Source of the DNA: Pseudoxanthomonas winnipegensis
GTDB lineage: Bacteria; Pseudomonadota; Gammaproteobacteria; Xanthomonadales; Xanthomonadaceae
Direction of reading: 5' to 3'
Length of the DNA: 64,000 bases
NCBI RefSeq assembly: GCF_004283755.1
Contig: NZ_SHMH01000003.1
Location: 248,001-312,000 of the forward strand
The position numbers were made by a program, and so were the translations under genes. The stretch's first letter is position 1. Every line of letters begins with the position of its first letter. A model generated the notes under the pieces. It was not told where the DNA came from. It saw only the letters and a list, made by a program, of their open reading frames with translations, and searched no databases. This document shows, in pieces, positions 47,717 through 60,131 of this stretch.

Positions 47717-48099
47717 GAGGTGCTCCTGAAAGGCCCCGATTCCAGGGGCCGGCTAGGAGCCAGGCGGAGGAGAACCGGGGCGGTTTGCATCGCGCACCGG
47801 GATATGATCGAAGGCATTGGTCTGGCGGAAAACCTGCTACAGCAAGCCACATCCAAGTCCAGCGTTAGCCCGGTGCGGATGCCATGCTCTGGCTTAAAAT
47901 CCGCCGGGAGCAATCCCTTGCCGGTTCGATTCCGGCTCCGGGCACCAGCACGTTCACCCGAGGCACAACGGATAGGTACGTTTTCGCCACAATCCGCAAC
48001 GGAATCAGTGGCTTGACCCATCCGACCTCCACGCACACGGCACGAATCGCCCGTGTTCGCACATAGCCACTCCCCAGAAATTCCCCATACGATGCCCCC
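47717..48099. other. ICE/prophage junction region
   Basis: The 383 bases between the ICE integrase (leftward) and the phage integrase (rightward). It includes the tRNA-Leu 3' fragment (47893-47947). The part before the fragment is ICE sequence; the part after it, up to the phage integrase, has no gene and may hold integrase-binding arms. Confidence 0.6.
47893..47947 (+). other. att site: 3' fragment of a tRNA-Leu(TAA) gene
   Basis: These 55 bases are the 3' part of a class II tRNA-Leu: anticodon loop CTTAAAA, 3' anticodon stem TCCGC, a long variable arm with the GGGA/TCCC stem, the T arm GCCGGTTCGATTCCGGC, the acceptor strand TCCGGGC and ACCA. The bases just upstream (TCTGG) do not pair with TCCGC, and there is no D arm, so the gene is not intact. 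It is the crossover product of site-specific integration, with the ICE to its left and the prophage to its right. Confidence 0.8.
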
Positions 48100-51478: not shown

Positions 51479-51666
51479 GTCCTGTGCCTCCAGTGCGTGG
51501 GGCGGTAGTAGACGTACATCACGTCCTCGCCTCGTTCGTCGGTGATGTACCAGAGCGAGCGCCGCCGGCGCAGCGGGCCTTCATTGCGCACGCCGTCGGC
51601 GTCGTCGATCTTGGTATCGACGATCACGCCTTCGGGGGCTGTGTCGATCGGCAACCAGTTGCTCAT
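51475..51666 (-). CDS. DUF551-like small phage protein
   Basis: A 63-residue protein starting MSNWLPIDTAPEGVIVDTK, the W-x-P-I-x-T-A-P opening of DUF551-type phage proteins, followed by a short beta-rich region (RSLWYITDERGEDVMYVYYR) and THW. It shares ATGA with the next gene. The role of the family is unknown. Confidence 0.65.
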   Translation of the reverse strand: MSNWLPIDTAPEGVIVDTKIDDADGVRNEGPLRRRRSLWYITDERGEDVMYVYYRPTHWRHRT

Positions 51667-51667
51667 G

Positions 51668-51808
51668 TCACTCTCCCTTGAGGGCTGCACGGATGACCCG
51701 GCGCCACTTGATCGCTGCCGTCAGACTCATCGGGTGAGCCCTTTGCAGTTCGTCGATGGTCGGCACGCGATCGCGGTACATCCGCGCCAGCTTGTAGGCC
51801 ACCAGCAT
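51668..51808 (-). CDS. Small helix-turn-helix phage protein
   Basis: A 46-residue protein: LVAYKLARMYRDRVPTIDEL then HPMSLTAAIKWRRVIRAAL, which reads as a helix-turn-helix (an entry helix, Pro-Thr, then a recognition helix with Trp-Arg-Arg). It lies between DUF551 and the RT gene and overlaps the RT tail in another frame by 82 bases. A GTG 17 codons upstream (51859) could be the real start. Confidence 0.5.
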   Translation of the reverse strand: MLVAYKLARMYRDRVPTIDELQRAHPMSLTAAIKWRRVIRAALKGE

Positions 51809-53187
51809 CGTCGGCTCGCGGATCTCGCCGCGCTTGGCGAAGGGGCGCTCACCGACTCGCTGGCACAGCTGGTCACCCCTCCAGCCGGAGGCGATGCGTG
51901 CACGGATGACATCGCCGCCCACGGGAAGCGGCGTGTGAGGTGCTGGGTGAGTCGGCGCGCATTGGCGTGACGGAAGTGGCCGCCGTAGCTGGCAAGGACC
52001 GCTTGCACGCGCTGGAGCGCTTCGGGGGCGAAGTGCGGCTGCCCGTCTCGCGGGAGAGCTGCCTCGATCTTTTGCAGGGCCGCCTTGGCGTGTGCCACGA
52101 CGCGCGGGCGCACCAGCGTATGCGTCGGCCGGATGACATAGCCGAGGAAGTCCAGGCCATCGTCGAGGCGACGCAGGCGGATCTCGGCCTTCAGGCCGAG
52201 GTGCAGCTGACGGCCGAGGAAGTCGGTGATCTGCGCCTGCCATGCTTCCAGCTGCGCGCGGTCCCGGTGGAACAGCACGAAGTCGTCCACGTAGCGCAGG
52301 TAGCGCTTGGCCTTGAGCTGGTGCTTGGCGAGCTGGTCCAAGGCGTCCAGGTAGACGTTGGCGAAGAACTGCGACGACAGGTTGCCGATCGGCAGGCCGC
52401 AGCCCGGCCCGGCGTTGCACAAGCGCTTGTGCGCGGGGACCTGGGCCAACTCGGCAGCCGTGGCGCGCGTCTGCGCGCCAGGGTGCAGCGGATCGCGACG
52501 CAGGAGCGCGTGGGTCGTCTGCAGGGCATGCGGATGCAGGCCGGCACGCAGCAGCCGTGGCTTTAGCATCGCCCACAGAGTGGGTCGGTGGATGCTGTTG
52601 AAGTAGTTGGCGATGTCCAGCTGCAGATACCAGCCGCCGCCCTGGCCGCTGGCCAGCTGTCGGCAGAACGCCTGCGCGCGGCGGACCGCGGCGTGGCTGC
52701 CCTTGCCGGCGCGGTTGGCATAGCTGTCGTGGATGAAGCCCGGTTCGTAGATCGCCTCCAGCTGAGGCACTAGCCAGTGGTGCACAACGCGGTCAGCGAA
52801 GTCCGGCGCGTGGATCTCACGCGCCTTGGGCCGGGTTGCGATGAAGCAGGTGGAAGGCCGCGGCGACCAGGTGCCGCTGGCGATCTCTTCTTGCAACTGG
52901 ATCAGGTTGTCCATCCAGCGCGTGTCGAAGCGCCGCTGGTTGTGGCTGGGCACTTTTTGCCGGCGGGCGCGCTTCCACGCCCGGTGCAATCCCTGCAGTG
53001 TCACTCCCCCTTGAAACTCACCGGCACGACGCACGGCCAACGCGAACCCGTTGTTGTTGCGGTGGTTGTTGTTGACGTTGCCGTTGTTGAAATTGACGTT
53101 CCACGCGGACGACGCGGACCACGCCGCCGCATCCCTGCGCACTTGGGACATCGCTGACCATCCGGCTGGGTAGGACAGGTTCGTCAT
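51727..53187 (-). CDS. DGR reverse transcriptase
   Basis: Reverse transcriptase of a diversity-generating retroelement. The frame is 486 codons from ATG 53187, which shares ATGA with the avd stop. Residues 20-56 are the translated template repeat (Asn-rich); the RT domain follows from about residue 65: LDIANYFNSI (189-198), GLPIGNLSSQFFANVYLD (264-281), the YVDD active site (299-302) and LDFLGYVIRP. An AAGGGGGAG site just after the TR suggests a second start near residue 62 (GTG) that would give a conventional RT without the Asn stretch. The last 60 residues are unusual and overlap another gene. Confidence 0.93.
   Translation of the reverse strand: MTNLSYPAGWSAMSQVRRDAAAWSASSAWNVNFNNGNVNNNHRNNNGFALAVRRAGEFQGGVTLQGLHRAWKRARRQKVPSHNQRRFDTRWMDNLIQLQEEIASGTWSPRPSTCFIATRPKAREIHAPDFADRVVHHWLVPQLEAIYEPGFIHDSYANRAGKGSHAAVRRAQAFCRQLASGQGGGWYLQLDIANYFNSIHRPTLWAMLKPRLLRAGLHPHALQTTHALLRRDPLHPGAQTRATAAELAQVPAHKRLCNAGPGCGLPIGNLSSQFFANVYLDALDQLAKHQLKAKRYLRYVDDFVLFHRDRAQLEAWQAQITDFLGRQLHLGLKAEIRLRRLDDGLDFLGYVIRPTHTLVRPRVVAHAKAALQKIEAALPRDGQPHFAPEALQRVQAVLASYGGHFRHANARRLTQHLTRRFPWAAMSSVHASPPAGGVTSCASESVSAPSPSAARSASRRCWWPTSWRGCTAIACRPSTNCKGLTR
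53020..53129 (-). repeat. DGR template repeat (TR)
   Basis: A 110-base sequence matching VR1 (53657-53766) and VR2 (54116-54225) with no gaps. On the coding strand it contains exactly 23 adenines, all inside one 50-base block made of eleven AAY codons and one CAC; the flanks have none. VR1 differs from it at 17 of these adenines and VR2 at 13. The only other difference is one C-to-T (coding) in VR1. Just beyond the 3' end (coding), TR reads GAGTTTCA where both VRs read CAGTAATT, as expected for the IMH/IMH* boundary. Confidence 0.96.
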
Positions 53188-53627
53188 CGTGTAGCCCCCG
53201 CGGAGGCGGCACAGGTACTCAGTTTCTGGCCACGCTGCGGCACGGCTCCGACGCCGGCCGCATTCTGGGCTTGAGGGGTTGCCTGGTGCCGGCGCCATCC
53301 GCCGGCCTGGGCGCCAAGCTGGTGCGCCGCCCGTGCTAGGGCTTCGAACTGCCTGAAGCTGGCGAAGGCGTGCAACAGCTTGGCGACCTGCAGGTGCTGC
53401 TTGAGCTCGTCGATGTCCCACACCAGCTGCGCCACGCGCTCGGCTTGGTGCTGGCGGTCCCGCCACGCCCGGTCGGCGTTGCGATAGACAGCCATGGCCT
53501 GGCGCCGAAGGTCAGCACCGATCTGGTAGCGGTGGTAGCGCGGGAAGCGTCGCACGGCCTGCTCGATGTCGACGAGCAGCCGTTCGGCGGTCTTCACGAT
53601 GGGTGGGAGCTGGAAGCGTGAGGGCAT
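53184..53627 (-). CDS. avd: DGR accessory protein Avd
   Basis: Accessory variability determinant, 147 residues, a four-helix bundle that binds the RT and is needed for mutagenic cDNA synthesis. The sequence is typical of the family: FQLPPIVKTAERLLVDIEQA, RRFPRYHRYQIGADLRRQAM, VWDIDELKQHLQVAKLLHAF and AHQLGAQAGGW. An Arg/Gln-rich tail of about 30 residues is extra. It lies between the VR1 gene and TR, as in Bordetella phage BPP-1 (target, avd, TR, RT). Confidence 0.93.
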   Translation of the reverse strand: MPSRFQLPPIVKTAERLLVDIEQAVRRFPRYHRYQIGADLRRQAMAVYRNADRAWRDRQHQAERVAQLVWDIDELKQHLQVAKLLHAFASFRQFEALARAAHQLGAQAGGWRRHQATPQAQNAAGVGAVPQRGQKLSTCAASAGATR

Positions 53628-53650
53628 GGACGGATCAACAGAGAGTCAAA

Positions 53651-54076
53651 TTACTGACCGGCACGACGCACGGCCAACGCGAACCCGACGTAGCCGCGGT
53701 GGCCGTAGCTGACGACGCCGAGGTCGAAATCGACGAACCACGCGGACGACGCAGACCACGCCGCCGGCGTGATGCTCCAGTACCAGTCGTTCCGGATGTC
53801 CTGGAAGAATTCGGTGTCGATCGCCGGCTCGTAGCGACTGCGGTCGATCAGCAGCTGCAACTCGTCGATGGTCGGCAGGTCCCAGTCACTGTGACCTGCC
53901 AGCGTCAGCGACTTGCACGCTTCCAGGCACTTCTCCTGCGGCACGTCGGTGTTCACGACGCTGGTGGCGCTGAAGGTCAGGCCATGCACCGGCAGATGCA
54001 CGGCGACCCAATCCTTCGCGTCGGCGGGAAGCTGCTGGCCGTCCGCCCCGATCTTGATGTACTTCGGCTGTTCCAT
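53651..54076 (-). CDS. DGR target protein 1, DUF1566 domain with VR
   Basis: A 141-residue DUF1566 (Lcl C-terminal, C-type-lectin-like) protein. The DUF1566 signature is seen in GHSDWDLPTIDELQLLIDRS and the following DTEFFQDIRNDWYWSIT. Its last 37 residues are the variable repeat (AAWSASSAW to RRAGQ). An AGGAG site precedes ATG 54076. No signal peptide and no membrane segment. Variable proteins of this fold normally present a diversified ligand-binding surface at the end of a larger particle or cell surface; where this one acts is not evident. Confidence 0.88.
   Translation of the reverse strand: MEQPKYIKIGADGQQLPADAKDWVAVHLPVHGLTFSATSVVNTDVPQEKCLEACKSLTLAGHSDWDLPTIDELQLLIDRSRYEPAIDTEFFQDIRNDWYWSITPAAWSASSAWFVDFDLGVVSYGHRGYVGFALAVRRAGQ
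53657..53766 (-). repeat. DGR variable repeat 1 (VR1)
   Basis: 110 bases, aligning to TR without gaps. Seventeen of the 23 TR adenine positions (coding strand) are substituted; all other bases match except one (53753). The changes fall in the codons for surface positions of the encoded C-type-lectin fold. VR1 ends at the gene's stop codon. Confidence 0.96.
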
Positions 54077-54109
54077 GGTGTTGCTCCTGTTGGTGATCAG
54101 AGAGGCCAA

Positions 54110-54658
54110 TTACTGACCGGCACGACGCACGGCCAACGCGAACCCGCTGTAGCTGCGGCGGAAGCTGTAGACGTAGCCGTAGCTGAAATCGACGTACCAC
54201 GCGGACGACGCGGACCACGCCGCCGCTGTGCTGGTCCAGTGCCAGCGCGGTTTCACGCGCGGGAACAGGGCGGTGTCGATCGCGGGCTCGTGGCGGGTGT
54301 CATCGACCAGGCCTTCCAGCTCCTTGCGCGTGGGCAGCCGCCAATCGTCGTACCCCAGAAGACGCAGCTCCGCGCAGCGCCTTTCGCAGGCGTCCTGGCT
54401 GATGCCGCTGTCGGGGTCCTTCGGATCCCCGAGCGATTCCACAGACCACATGAGGCTGGTGGCGTTGTCGATCACCGCGACGTGGTCGGTGCGCGAATCG
54501 GCGCCGGGTAGGTGGGTGCCGTCGGCGAGAACTTTCGTGTACCGGGGCGCGACGTGGCTGAAGGTCTCTAGGTGTGCGGGCAGCGTGATGTCGTTGGTGA
54601 GATTGGCCGGAAGATGGAGATGCATCTCCAGGCGGCGGATGTTGACCGTGGTGCTCAT
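54110..54658 (-). CDS. DGR target protein 2, DUF1566 domain with VR
   Basis: A 182-residue DUF1566 protein, longer than target 1. The core is YDDWRLPTRKELEGLVDD, then HEPAIDTALFPRVKPRWHWT, and the last 37 residues are VR2. The first 60 residues (beta-rich, LPANLTNDITLPAHLETFSH) are extra. It overlaps the preceding small gene by ATGA. Sequence outside the VR differs widely from target 1, so they are old paralogues, while their VR backbones stay nearly identical, consistent with copying from one TR. Confidence 0.88.
   Translation of the reverse strand: MSTTVNIRRLEMHLHLPANLTNDITLPAHLETFSHVAPRYTKVLADGTHLPGADSRTDHVAVIDNATSLMWSVESLGDPKDPDSGISQDACERRCAELRLLGYDDWRLPTRKELEGLVDDTRHEPAIDTALFPRVKPRWHWTSTAAAWSASSAWYVDFSYGYVYSFRRSYSGFALAVRRAGQ
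54116..54225 (-). repeat. DGR variable repeat 2 (VR2)
   Basis: 110 bases, no gaps against TR; 13 of 23 TR adenine positions are substituted and no other base differs. Confidence 0.96.
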
Positions 54659-54849
54659 GCGGCCACCTTCTCGGCGGGCACGCGCACGCGCGGCTTAACG
54701 GTCGAGGCCAGTGCCTGGTCGTGCTTCCACTCACTGGCGCGCTGGCGGAAGACGGCTGCGTTGATCTCGTTGCCGTTCGCCAACTCGGCGTCGGCGACTG
54801 CTAGCAGGAAGTCTGGGCCGCTAAGGCGGCTAGGGTCGGTATCGAACAT
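54655..54849 (-). CDS. Small phage protein of unknown function
   Basis: A 64-residue protein (MFDTDPSRLSGPDFLLAVAD, then ANGNEINAAVFRQRASEWKHD), mostly helical. No family recognised. Ends in an ATGA overlap with DGR target 2, which links the DGR to the operon above. Confidence 0.6.
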   Translation of the reverse strand: MFDTDPSRLSGPDFLLAVADAELANGNEINAAVFRQRASEWKHDQALASTVKPRVRVPAEKVAA

Positions 54850-57597: not shown

Positions 57598-58428
57598 CTA
57601 CAGCAGGGGTTGCGCCTCGCGCGCAAACTCCACGATGCGCATCCGATCGCTAGCGGGCAAGATGTCGGCGCCAAGCTGGCCAAGGTCGTCCATGATCTCT
57701 TTGGCGGCACGGCCTGGACGGCCGTCTTGAGCTGCGTCGACTGCGAACAGCAGCTTTCCGGGCAGTGCGCCGTGCCGCTTGAGGCGTGCGATGCGGCCAA
57801 CCCACTGAGTGCCATGGTCCAGGACCTTGCTGGCCTCTTCCTGAGCGAGATGCAGCGGCTTGATCACCAGTTGCGGCTTCCCGTGGTGATCCTCATGGAC
57901 GTAAGGGAACTTGACCTCGTAGTCGGCATTGCCCACCTGTGCCGCTTTGAAGCGTGCGCGCAGGTTCGCAGCTGACAATGTTTTGCCAATCAATGCCGTC
58001 AGGCGTTGCTCGTGATACTCGCGCGTGGCGAAGTCGCGCTCCACCAGGCGATTGAACAACCGCAGCAGCGCCTCATCTGGATGGCCCGTAACCATCAGGG
58101 CGCGGGGTGCGCTGTAGCGGATCAGAGTCTCGCGCGGGCGCGTGATCTCGGCAAAAGCTGGCCCGGCTGAGATCCATCCTTCCTGGACCTCGACACTGAT
58201 GCGCTGGAGGTCGCGCTCGACGTACTTGATCGCCTCGCGATAAATGCGTGCATCCAGGCCCTCCCAAAAATCCGTGATGCGCTTGCTGCGGCGGGGCGCG
58301 GCCAGCTTGACGCCCAGGTATCGAAAAGGCGCGCACGCCAGTACCACCCCGACGTTGGCGAACTCGTTCGTCTCGGGGTAGGGCATGAACTCTACGATGG
58401 CGTATTGGCAGGGGACGCGCATAGTCAT
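57598..58428 (-). CDS. DUF3037 protein
   Basis: A 276-residue DUF3037 protein. The opening CQYAIVEFMPYPETNEFANV is the family signature, followed by FRYLGVKLAAPRRSKRITDF. DUF3037 genes are often next to HipA-like kinases. It overlaps the HipA-like gene by ATGA and is followed by a strong terminator, so it is the last gene expressed in the lysogen. It may act with the kinase as a toxin-antitoxin or phage-defence pair; this is inferred. Confidence 0.82.
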   Translation of the reverse strand: MTMRVPCQYAIVEFMPYPETNEFANVGVVLACAPFRYLGVKLAAPRRSKRITDFWEGLDARIYREAIKYVERDLQRISVEVQEGWISAGPAFAEITRPRETLIRYSAPRALMVTGHPDEALLRLFNRLVERDFATREYHEQRLTALIGKTLSAANLRARFKAAQVGNADYEVKFPYVHEDHHGKPQLVIKPLHLAQEEASKVLDHGTQWVGRIARLKRHGALPGKLLFAVDAAQDGRPGRAAKEIMDDLGQLGADILPASDRMRIVEFAREAQPLL

Positions 58429-59189
58429 GAGGAAAAATTCCAGAAATCGTCTTGGGTGTAGCGCTCGAGAAGCCGACGGCTGGCCGAAAGGTCAAAGTCC
58501 GTGGCGATGCTCGCTTCTTCGTCGTGATGTAGCCAATCCAGGGGGATCGAAGCTTGGATCCGATCCCAATGCGCTAGGGCGCTCGCCAGTCGCTCACTAT
58601 AGTCTGCCCGTGCATACAAATCCTGTTGAAGCCCAGGGATATCGTGACGAAAGACGTGCAGCTTCGTGAACGCGGAGACGTTGAAATCGCGGTCAAATGC
58701 CTGGTTGTAGTCGATGGTGACCAGACGGCTTTCACTGGGCGACCATAGGAGATTGGGGTTGCCCCCATGGCTGGTCAAGGTCCTGTCGTTATTGTGCAGC
58801 CACCAATCGAGCAATAGGACATCCCTGCGCACGTTCTGGGGGACATCTTGGACGCTGGACCAGGTAAGTTCCGCCAGGTTGGGGACCTCGCGTGAGGCAA
58901 AACCGGCAGCGTGCCCCAGATCCGATCCATCCGGGATGGCGGGCAGAAGCAGCACGCTCGCACGCGCGCGTCCAAAAGGTGGCAACTCAAGTCCGAATGC
59001 GGCGGCCAGCTGGCCGGCGATCCATTCACAAAGGTGGCTGCGTGTGCCTGCTGAGCGGCCTTTCACGAAATAGGTGTGCTCGTCTGCGCCGACGCAGCGG
59101 AATGGCTTGGTGATGCCTTGGCTGCTGCGTCCAAGCACCTCAACTATCTCAATCTCATCTGGGATGAGGCTGGAAGGCGGCGAGTTCAA
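58425..59189 (-). CDS. HipA-like protein kinase
   Basis: A 254-residue protein with the core of a HipA-type Ser/Thr kinase fold: an ATP-binding Lys in THTYFVKGRSAGTRSHL-type text (here EHTYFVKGRSAG), the catalytic loop WWLHNNDRTLTSHGGNPNLL and the metal motif VTIDYNQAFD. It is much shorter than HipA (440), lacking the N-terminal subdomain, like the small kinases paired with DUF3037. Coupled by ATGA overlaps to the repressor upstream and DUF3037 downstream. Confidence 0.78.
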   Translation of the reverse strand: MNSPPSSLIPDEIEIVEVLGRSSQGITKPFRCVGADEHTYFVKGRSAGTRSHLCEWIAGQLAAAFGLELPPFGRARASVLLLPAIPDGSDLGHAAGFASREVPNLAELTWSSVQDVPQNVRRDVLLLDWWLHNNDRTLTSHGGNPNLLWSPSESRLVTIDYNQAFDRDFNVSAFTKLHVFRHDIPGLQQDLYARADYSERLASALAHWDRIQASIPLDWLHHDEEASIATDFDLSASRRLLERYTQDDFWNFSS

Positions 59190-59836
59190 TCTTCCCAGCT
59201 CCCAATCCAGCGCACTCGCCCCACGATGCTGACCGGTTCGCGCTTGTTGTCCAGGCGCTTGGGGCGTCCCCAGTTGTGGTCCCCCCTGGGGTTGTCGCTT
59301 TCGACCAGCACGATGTCGTCGGCCATCTTGATGCGCTTTACGTACTGCTCGCCTCGCCAGGTGACGATGTAGAGCCCGTTGTGCACAGGCTGGACGTCGT
59401 CCTGATCGAATAGCAGCGCATCCCCGGAGTGGATGCGCGGTTCCATGCTGTCGCCGCTGGCGTAGTAGACGGCCAGTCGGCGATTAAGAAGTCCTTTGCG
59501 CCGCAGGCTGTTCGCTCGGAACTTGAGCGCGTGCGTCTCTGCGTATTCCTGTACTTCGGTGCCGGCACCGGCGCCTACCGCCTGGGCGTAGCCAAGCACG
59601 TCCTTCCAGTCGGGATCTCCGGACTCATCTGCGACCATCGACCCCTTCCCAGTCTGCAGCCAGTGCACGGACACTCCGAGCGCCGATGCAATCTGTGGAA
59701 GTTGGGTAGTGCCGCTCTGGTCGTTGTTTTCTATTCCGGCGAGGGTCGAATAGGGGATCTTGGCCTTCTCGGCCAACGCTGGTCGCTTGAGGCCCATCTT
59801 GTCTCGGGCCTGCCTGATTCGTTCACCTACGGTCAT
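59186..59836 (-). CDS. CI-type prophage repressor with S24 peptidase domain
   Basis: Lysogeny repressor of 216 residues. The N-terminal HTH (IRQARDKMGLKRPALAEKAK, STLAGIENND) binds operators; the C-terminal LexA/S24 domain has the Ser nucleophile in YASGDSMEPRI (Ser130) and the Lys in RGEQYVKRIK (Lys167), with an Ala-Gly cleavage region near 88-92. It can be inactivated by RecA-stimulated self-cleavage. It starts at 59836, divergent from the Cro-like gene, and leads a three-gene operon with HipA and DUF3037. Confidence 0.92.
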   Translation of the reverse strand: MTVGERIRQARDKMGLKRPALAEKAKIPYSTLAGIENNDQSGTTQLPQIASALGVSVHWLQTGKGSMVADESGDPDWKDVLGYAQAVGAGAGTEVQEYAETHALKFRANSLRRKGLLNRRLAVYYASGDSMEPRIHSGDALLFDQDDVQPVHNGLYIVTWRGEQYVKRIKMADDIVLVESDNPRGDHNWGRPKRLDNKREPVSIVGRVRWIGSWED

Positions 59837-59847
59837 CCGCAAATTCT

Positions 59848-59902
59848 TATGGGAAACCGTTATGGCATCCCGTTGACATCGAGCTATGGGATGCCATAGA
59901 TT
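59848..59902 (+). promoter_or_regulatory. Rightward early promoter PR with three repressor operators
   Basis: -35 TTGACA (59873-59878), an 18-base spacer, -10 TAGATT (59897-59902). Operator copies: TATGGGAAACCGTT (59848-59861), TATGGCATCCCGTT (59861-59874) and the fully symmetric TATGGGATGCCATA (59885-59898). The last is in the spacer, as at PL. The other two lie over and before the -35 and towards the repressor start, so they could also control repressor synthesis. Confidence 0.85.
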
Positions 59903-59909
59903 GCGTTCC

Positions 59910-60131
59910 ATGAACTGGTCCGCCTGCATTTCCTCCCTCGAAACCCTGGGCTGGTCTCTGACCGGCATCGGCAAGGCCATCGGCCTATCGCCCCAGGCCG
60001 TCAGCGACATCAAGCAGGGCCGGACCAAGGCACCCAGCGGCATGGCCGCCGTCCGCCTGCACGACCTGCACGAGCGCGGCGAAGGTCCGCCGCGCGACAC
60101 CAGCGAACCCACCACGGCTGAGGCCGCCTGA
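59910..60131 (+). CDS. cro: Cro-like helix-turn-helix regulator
   Basis: A 73-residue Cro-like protein: MNWSACISSLETLGWSLTGI, then KAIGLSPQAVSDIKQGRTKA, the classic turn of small Cro proteins. The ATG at 59910 is only 8 bases after the -10 box, so the transcript would have almost no leader, and no ribosome-binding site is visible. First gene of the rightward early operon. Confidence 0.83.
   Translation: MNWSACISSLETLGWSLTGIGKAIGLSPQAVSDIKQGRTKAPSGMAAVRLHDLHERGEGPPRDTSEPTTAEAA

Follow-up and report, generated by a model that had tools for sequence, protein, structure and literature searches.

How does a diversity-generating retroelement (DGR) start its cDNA, and how does it tell target from template? 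In the literature searched, both points have been worked out in detail for the DGR of BPP-1 only. A lambda-like prophage in the chromosome of Pseudoxanthomonas winnipegensis raises the question anew; it carries, on the minus strand, a DGR whose template repeat (TR) most likely lies inside the gene of its own reverse transcriptase (RT). We analyzed the 64,000-nucleotide stretch that holds this element (contig NZ_SHMH01000003.1 of assembly GCF_004283755.1, positions 248,001 to 312,000 of the forward strand; hereafter the window, from whose first letter all coordinates are counted) together with relatives of its RT. The element is a complete phage DGR that diversifies two small Lcl_C proteins, and we consider it probable that its template RNA is of another build than that of BPP-1, with a folded module 5' of TR that would serve priming.

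A complete DGR with two targets

The relatives comprised 165 loci (the best 80 of 87 genome contigs, the best 80 of 81 viral contigs, and L007-L011 of whole genomes), of which 151 were tabulated; the 14 left out are L007 and L011, read on the plus strand only, and 12 without an RT match from near its start. Loci with RT identity of at least 54% are called near (n=78, including the window's own L116, a 43-kb IMG/VR contig identical to the window over all 10,928 bases compared) and those with lower identity far (n=73). Some loci are copies of one element, such as L036 and L128, and many near loci are closely related, a cut at 93% identity leaving 54.

A preliminary description, made from the letters of the window, had called the element a complete DGR in a prophage, and all of its parts are now identified on the minus strand, in the order target 2, target 1, avd, TR, RT. 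Target gene 2 (54110..54658, 182 aa; Pfam PF07603, E 6e-26) and target gene 1 (53651..54076, 141 aa from the ATG at 54076; E 1e-20) both match the Lcl_C domain above cut-off, and in both the domain ends in the variable repeat (VR). The longest frame of target 1 reaches 54109, the ATG at 54076 being probably its start. We take Lcl_C to be lectin-like, as the target of BPP-1 presumably is too; against solved chains, the target profile gave one weak match (8q4e, E 0.005), and the host genome searched holds no Lcl_C proteins beyond these two. The avd gene (53184..53627) matches PHROG 3206 (Avd, E 1e-18), with matches to Pfam bAvd and NCBIfam Avd both under cut-off, and its stop codon TGA overlaps the RT start codon as ATGA. 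The RT frame (51727..53187, with the RT domain from about 53000) matches PHROG 1423 (E 5e-96), a family named only reverse transcriptase, and its translation contains YVDD and LPIGNLSSQ, the latter, we assume, a DGR-type RT motif. Among solved structures, the closest in sequence is the reverse transcriptase in entry 8ub7, which we take to be that of BPP-1, and a VR of at least 90 nt was found on the RT strand in 132 of the 151 tabulated relatives. Retron RT models gave one match, far under cut-off at 37 of 235 bits, in a comparison that included no tree with retron RTs. Conservation of the RT fades near 51880 (codons after about 435), the remaining frame down to 51727 not being conserved in relatives; a second minus-strand frame (51668-51908) overlaps this unconserved C-terminus and could be a small overlapping gene or another end of the RT.

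The gapless 110-base alignment of TR (53020..53129, 23 adenines) with VR1 (53657..53766) and VR2 (54116..54225) given in the preliminary description is exact, as are its counts of changes: VR1 differs at 17 of the 23 adenines and at 1 of the 87 other bases, VR2 at 13 adenines and at none of the other bases (Fisher p 4e-14 and 4e-11), the sole non-adenine change being C to T. One base 3' of the alignment, at 53019, TR has a G where both VRs have C. We found no copies of TR or VR in the host genome beyond these three.

Sister elements bear out the claim that the element has been active on both targets. In L117, whose RT is 97.8% identical to that of the window, VR1 differs from its window counterpart at 13/23 adenine positions and 0/87 others, VR2 at 14/23 and 1/88, and TR at 0/23 and 1/87; VRs differing equally at other bases, or a TR varying along with them, were not seen. 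For L118 the corresponding values are 13/23 and 3/87 (VR1), 18/23 and 5/88 (VR2), and 0/23 and 4/87 (TR). The non-adenine changes in the TRs of both sisters recur in both VRs of the same element, as copying from TR (homing) predicts. Across 73 near loci with 144 VRs, 2108 of 3480 TR adenines differ, compared with 30 of 12552 other bases; across 59 far loci with 85 VRs the values are 1565/3576 and 114/7512, in a set that retains likely misassigned repeats (e.g., L102, L060, L056, and L092). These counts support past adenine-only diversification of both targets by a complete DGR, and as a DGR the element is ordinary. One TR serving more than one VR is a feature shared with multi-target DGRs, among which those of Treponema denticola and Stenotrophomonas sp. 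have as many as eight targets (cited in PMC10743442; here and below, statements on cited papers refer to the parts of them available to us); the window has two and none elsewhere in the host genome. Some near relatives have a further target 3-6 kb upstream of RT (22 VR entries, copies included). Ten other contigs (L200, L203, L210, L218, L220, L226, L230, L233, L236, and L240) carry VR-like sequence of this DGR family, with no RT match in the partial stretches examined, and could hold targets served in trans; L236 has the same IMG genome number as L151, and L220 also carries the RNA module described below.

The template repeat within the RT reading frame

The RT frame most likely starts at the ATG at 53187, ahead of TR, which would place TR inside the RT gene. 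TR and avd could both be placed in 73 near loci, and in every one of them an ATG overlapping the avd stop codon (ATGA) follows a G-rich stretch and opens a frame that runs through TR into RT. Between this ATG and RT, frame 0 is free of stops in all 73, and the other frames contain stops in 73 and 69 loci; the 14 distinct distances observed range from 171 to 210 nt and are all multiples of 3, and in L181, L167, L162, and L168 ATG and RT remain in frame even though TR itself is read in a different one. This family-wide conservation of start, frame, and coupling argues that the TR-encoded stretch is translated as the N-terminus of RT, behind a conserved RT-frame leader upstream of TR (53130..53187). 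An open frame through TR in a single sequence was rejected as evidence of translation: the brt frame of BPP-1 is likewise open for 699 nt upstream, with TR in between, so only the family-wide test counts. TRs that overlap the RT frame at its 5' end form an annotation class in earlier work (PMC3521204), but there it is annotation only, whereas here start, frame, and coupling are conserved over 73 loci. From the end of TR to the RT domain (residue 67) there are 4-24 nt in all 73 near relatives and 12 nt in the window, compared with a 144-nt spacer between TR and brt in BPP-1.

RNA structure on the 5' side of the template

In the BPP-1 model, a structured 3' spacer recruits RT-Avd and primes synthesis, and a stop motif lies in the end of avd (PMC12875486). 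Were the window element a plain DGR of that type, as its gene order and the kinship of its RT to 8ub7 might suggest, the spacer RNA would have to lie concealed within the RT codons that follow TR, and any module 5' of TR would be secondary. Sliding consensus folds over 34 non-redundant relatives (100-nt segments, 20 column shuffles each) gave z < -3 in only four segments, from -125 to +75 around the RT ATG, that is, just 5' of TR and over its first bases; the best, at -100..0, had z -14 with a covariation z of +6.5, and no further segment reached z < -3 up to +1175 after the RT start. Synonymous identity, measured in 35 close relatives, was 0.97-0.99 in the TR core and 0.71-0.78 in the leader, and just after TR it was 0.52-0.62, not raised over the RT body (0.43-0.80).

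The same procedure detects the spacer in relatives of BPP-1. As a control, we collected 67 RT relatives of BPP-1, 63 with an RT start, 56 of which gave TR and VR; between TR and RT there are 140-186 nt in 56/56. In 44 non-redundant members the region from -205 to +45, which is the spacer, was strongly structured (z between -7 and -31 wherever z was defined). One segment inside the RT gene (-1.2 kcal/mol) also had a large z, and 5' of TR there was no structure save in a -0.1 kcal/mol segment whose shuffles never fold. With neither consensus structure nor raised synonymous identity 3' of TR, we rejected a spacer hidden in RT codons, and, given also the 4-24 nt that separate TR from the RT domain, a plain BPP-1-type DGR appears very improbable.

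The structure 5' of TR is a module in the 3' end of avd (all features on the minus strand). It begins with the 5' strand of helix b (b1, 53274..53278), continues with the hairpin P1/P2 within the 3' end of avd (53228..53271) and the 5' strand of helix a (a1, GAAACU, 53221..53226), directly 3' of which stands an invariant G (53220), and ends with the hairpin P3 (53194..53207), in which lies a G-rich stretch, resembling a ribosome-binding site, ahead of the RT start. The partner strands lie in RT codons: a2 (AGUUUC, 53013..53018) pairs with a1, and b2 (53007..53011) covaries with b1. For P1/P2 and P3 in 54 sequences, 95.1% of cells were paired, compared with 78.3% after shuffling (0/500), with 98 double-changed cells compared with 27.6, showing covariation. 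The motif ACUGAGU is invariant in 54/54, though it covers two six-codon residues (Leu and Ser) in the avd frame.

Helix a has all six pairs in 71 of the 72 near loci with the motif. Its fourth pair is A-U, C-G, U-A, or U-G across near loci and changed state 13 times on an RT tree of 90 rows built by a quick method; in far loci other pairs changed in step, as in GAUCACU/AGUGAUC, GAACACU/AGUGUUC, and AUUCACU/AGUGAAU. The mean stem formed with the locus' own partner was 5.98 compared with 4.71 for permuted partners in the near set (46 unique) and 5.62 compared with 4.52 in the far set (n=26), each 0/2000; this test re-optimises placement, a fixed best placement favouring the own partner in the far set. 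For helix b, formed by the stretch ahead of P1 and the flank that follows a2, the own partner gave 5.02 compared with 3.70 permuted (54 unique near loci, 0/300), in a set that retains 11 loci judged by eye to be mis-anchored. Over all five helices in 50 sequences, 91.8% of cells were paired compared with 77.5% shuffled (0/500), with 154 double-changed cells compared with 54.2 and a covariation of 0.381 compared with 0.146; slid controls paired in 34-55%, and helix a alone in 99.7% of cells. The minimum-energy fold of the window RNA includes both long helices. Together, these comparisons show that the 5' module pairs with the roughly 12 nt that immediately follow TR, by way of helices a and b, and so closes TR as a loop. 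Extending helix a to motif-less DGRs or to BPP-1 was tried and dropped, an unguided complementarity search there not being significant. A scan of 51500-54800 against Rfam gave one match up to E 5, to an unrelated small RNA family (E 2.1, far under cut-off).

A module in this place could instead terminate the cDNA, with some other primer at work, and its position 5' of TR in the end of avd is indeed that of the BPP-1 stop motif (PMC12875486). However, its pairing partner is the 3' flank of TR, the expected starting point of synthesis, and no other conserved local structure was found between TR and position +1175 relative to the RT start; we hold a terminator to be unlikely. A second alternative is that the module controls or couples translation of avd and RT, with P3 hiding the ribosome-binding site, and is unrelated to priming. 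It overlaps the end of avd and the start of RT, and the G-rich stretch of P3 lies about 7 nt before the ATGA start, as translation control would have it; on the other side, helices a and b covary and close exactly at the end of TR/VR identity.

Spread of the module to distant DGRs

Distant DGRs bear further on translation control. A scan of 90 sources (the window, L241-L243, and a further 86 loci) with a model built from near loci only (R1) returned 34 matches to E 1. Outside the window there were 33, of which 32 lay on the RT strand; TR could be located for 24 of the 33, and in 22 of these the match ends 38-186 nt ahead of TR. A second model (R2), to whose building set 18 loci were added, gave 46 matches, 27 of them in loci outside that set. 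At E <0.01, the module model matches 38/73 far loci (16 of the 38 used in building), which by record title belong to six named phyla, with two unassigned. On the relatives of BPP-1, R2 gave one match, at E 0.12, in 68 sources. Distant DGRs thus keep the module, yet an ATGA followed by a frame through TR occurs in only 1 of the 39 far loci with both parts located, and an element of translation control alone seems to us improbable.

The junction of repeat and target flank

We then compared the bases at the 3' end of TR and VR. The TR base facing the invariant G is G in 72/72 near loci, and in 26 far loci it is G in 12, A in 11, C in 2, and T in 1. VR is followed by CAGT in 135/141 near and 32/41 far cases, including both window VRs (53656-53653 after VR1 and 54115-54112 after VR2). 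With the TR base mostly G or A and VR followed by CAGT, the invariant G would be mostly unpaired on the template and could pair on the target. CAGT may instead reflect coding (Gln-stop).

BPP-1 carries a stem-loop after VR, a hairpin with a GAAA loop (PMC3240598), and the window has no such hairpin. Across the window clade, a GC-rich hairpin with a GRNA loop followed VR in 0/128 distinct flanks, compared with 36/45 in the BPP-1 relatives taken as control, and we discarded a target hairpin of that type. In the window clade, then, we found neither a structured 3' spacer nor a BPP-1-type hairpin after VR. At the place of the BPP-1 hairpin stands the conserved post-VR CAGT, and a pyrimidine-rich stretch, read by eye as AATTxGxCyyTyTG, often comes next.

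A proposed mechanism and its likeness to BPP-1 and retrons

The preliminary description had placed the parts in the BPP-1 order. That holds for the genes: BPP-1 (NC_005357) and the window share target-avd-TR-RT order on one strand, adenine-only mutagenesis, Avd, and the RT family. It does not extend to the cis-acting RNA and DNA, and unlike BPP-1 the window has TR inside the RT frame, two targets, and structured RNA on the 5' side.

The geometry of this RNA resembles that of retrons, whose RNA ends pair with each other, the priming G being part of the 5' strand or following directly after it (PMC6868368). As in the retron msr-msd, a 5' strand ending directly before a conserved G pairs with a strand 3' of the copied region (PMC6868368). 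The AGC-type context of the retron G (PMC6868368) is not found here; the window clade has ACUGAG, and the contexts are CUGA or CUGU. The relatives of the window RT, moreover, are DGR RTs with TR/VR pairs, and the product would serve mutagenic homing. A 2'-5' branched RNA-DNA product is a retron feature, the likeness of the window being known from sequence.

In the mechanism that we propose, the avd-end module (b1, P1/P2, a1, the invariant G, and P3) pairs with the 3' flank of TR and makes TR a loop closed at its 3' end. RT and Avd would bind this module, and the nucleotide next to helix a, which is the invariant G if the retron parallel holds or else one beside it, would prime cDNA synthesis at the 3' end of TR. 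We infer priming by the invariant G from retron geometry, by analogy. The cDNA, copied with errors at A, would then replace VR. The ACUG of the RNA could pair with the CAGT after VR but not with the GAGT of TR, which would tell target from template and so mark the target. Translation through TR would couple synthesis of Avd and RT to the template RNA.

Several observations weigh against this mechanism. In the helices, variation of helix a within the near clade falls mainly at one pair, L164 has a mismatch in it, and 7 of the 26 far loci with the motif have at most 3 helix a pairs from the ACU end; a tree-based test of independent pairs was set aside, with only 2-3 contrasts on supported branches. 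No more than 76.7% of cells are paired in helix b, the window RNA folds with no better energy than shuffled sequence (z 0.72), and an unguided complementarity search neither singled out the long helices nor reached significance. Further, at E 0.01 the module model matches nothing in 35 of the 73 far loci, and in L113 (7330-7720), which keeps the module and the ATGA, RT lies outside the frame of that start and we found no VR. We found no such 5' module in the parts of the DGR and retron literature searched; papers on BPP-1 RNA structure lie outside that search, and a counterpart there is possible. L113 itself could be a degenerate element or a sequencing error.

Prophage setting

The phage integrase (48100..49089, plus strand; Pfam Phage_integrase, E 6e-16) marks the left end of the prophage. 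A 20-bp repeat at 47928-47947 ends in CACCA like a tRNA end and has a second copy at 91539 (window coordinates continued), 43.6 kb to the right; tRNA prediction at both copies gave none. The DGR shares a leftward gene block with a CI-like repressor (59186..60115, minus strand; PHROG 4, E 4e-42). The scan that identified the repressor covered 10 proteins; it also showed a primase in the window and, in the next 37 kb, terminase, portal, spanin, and central tail fibre J, the sole tail gene identified, about 30 kb away from the DGR. On the repressor side of the gene block, a DUF3037 protein adjoins a HipA-like kinase (57598-59189, minus strand). The prophage contig L189 (7999-8249) matches window 51658-51908 at 92%, mainly the small region downstream of RT, and RT was not found in the contig stretch examined; the DGR may be a removable block.

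Implications for DGR biology

More broadly, though tentatively and at somewhat less than even probability, a large DGR branch that extends from this prophage clade into several phyla may make its mutagenized cDNA from a retron-like RNA in which a 5' module folds back, the invariant G primes, and ACUG reads CAGT as opposed to (G/A)AGT; the BPP-1 spacer would then be one of two designs. The RNA module is also a sequence marker for locating TRs. If other DGRs do use a 5' module of retron geometry, the minimal RNA of a second, spacer-free DGR would be defined and testable in vitro, the priming rule of BPP-1 would not be universal, and DGRs and retrons would share more than their RT.

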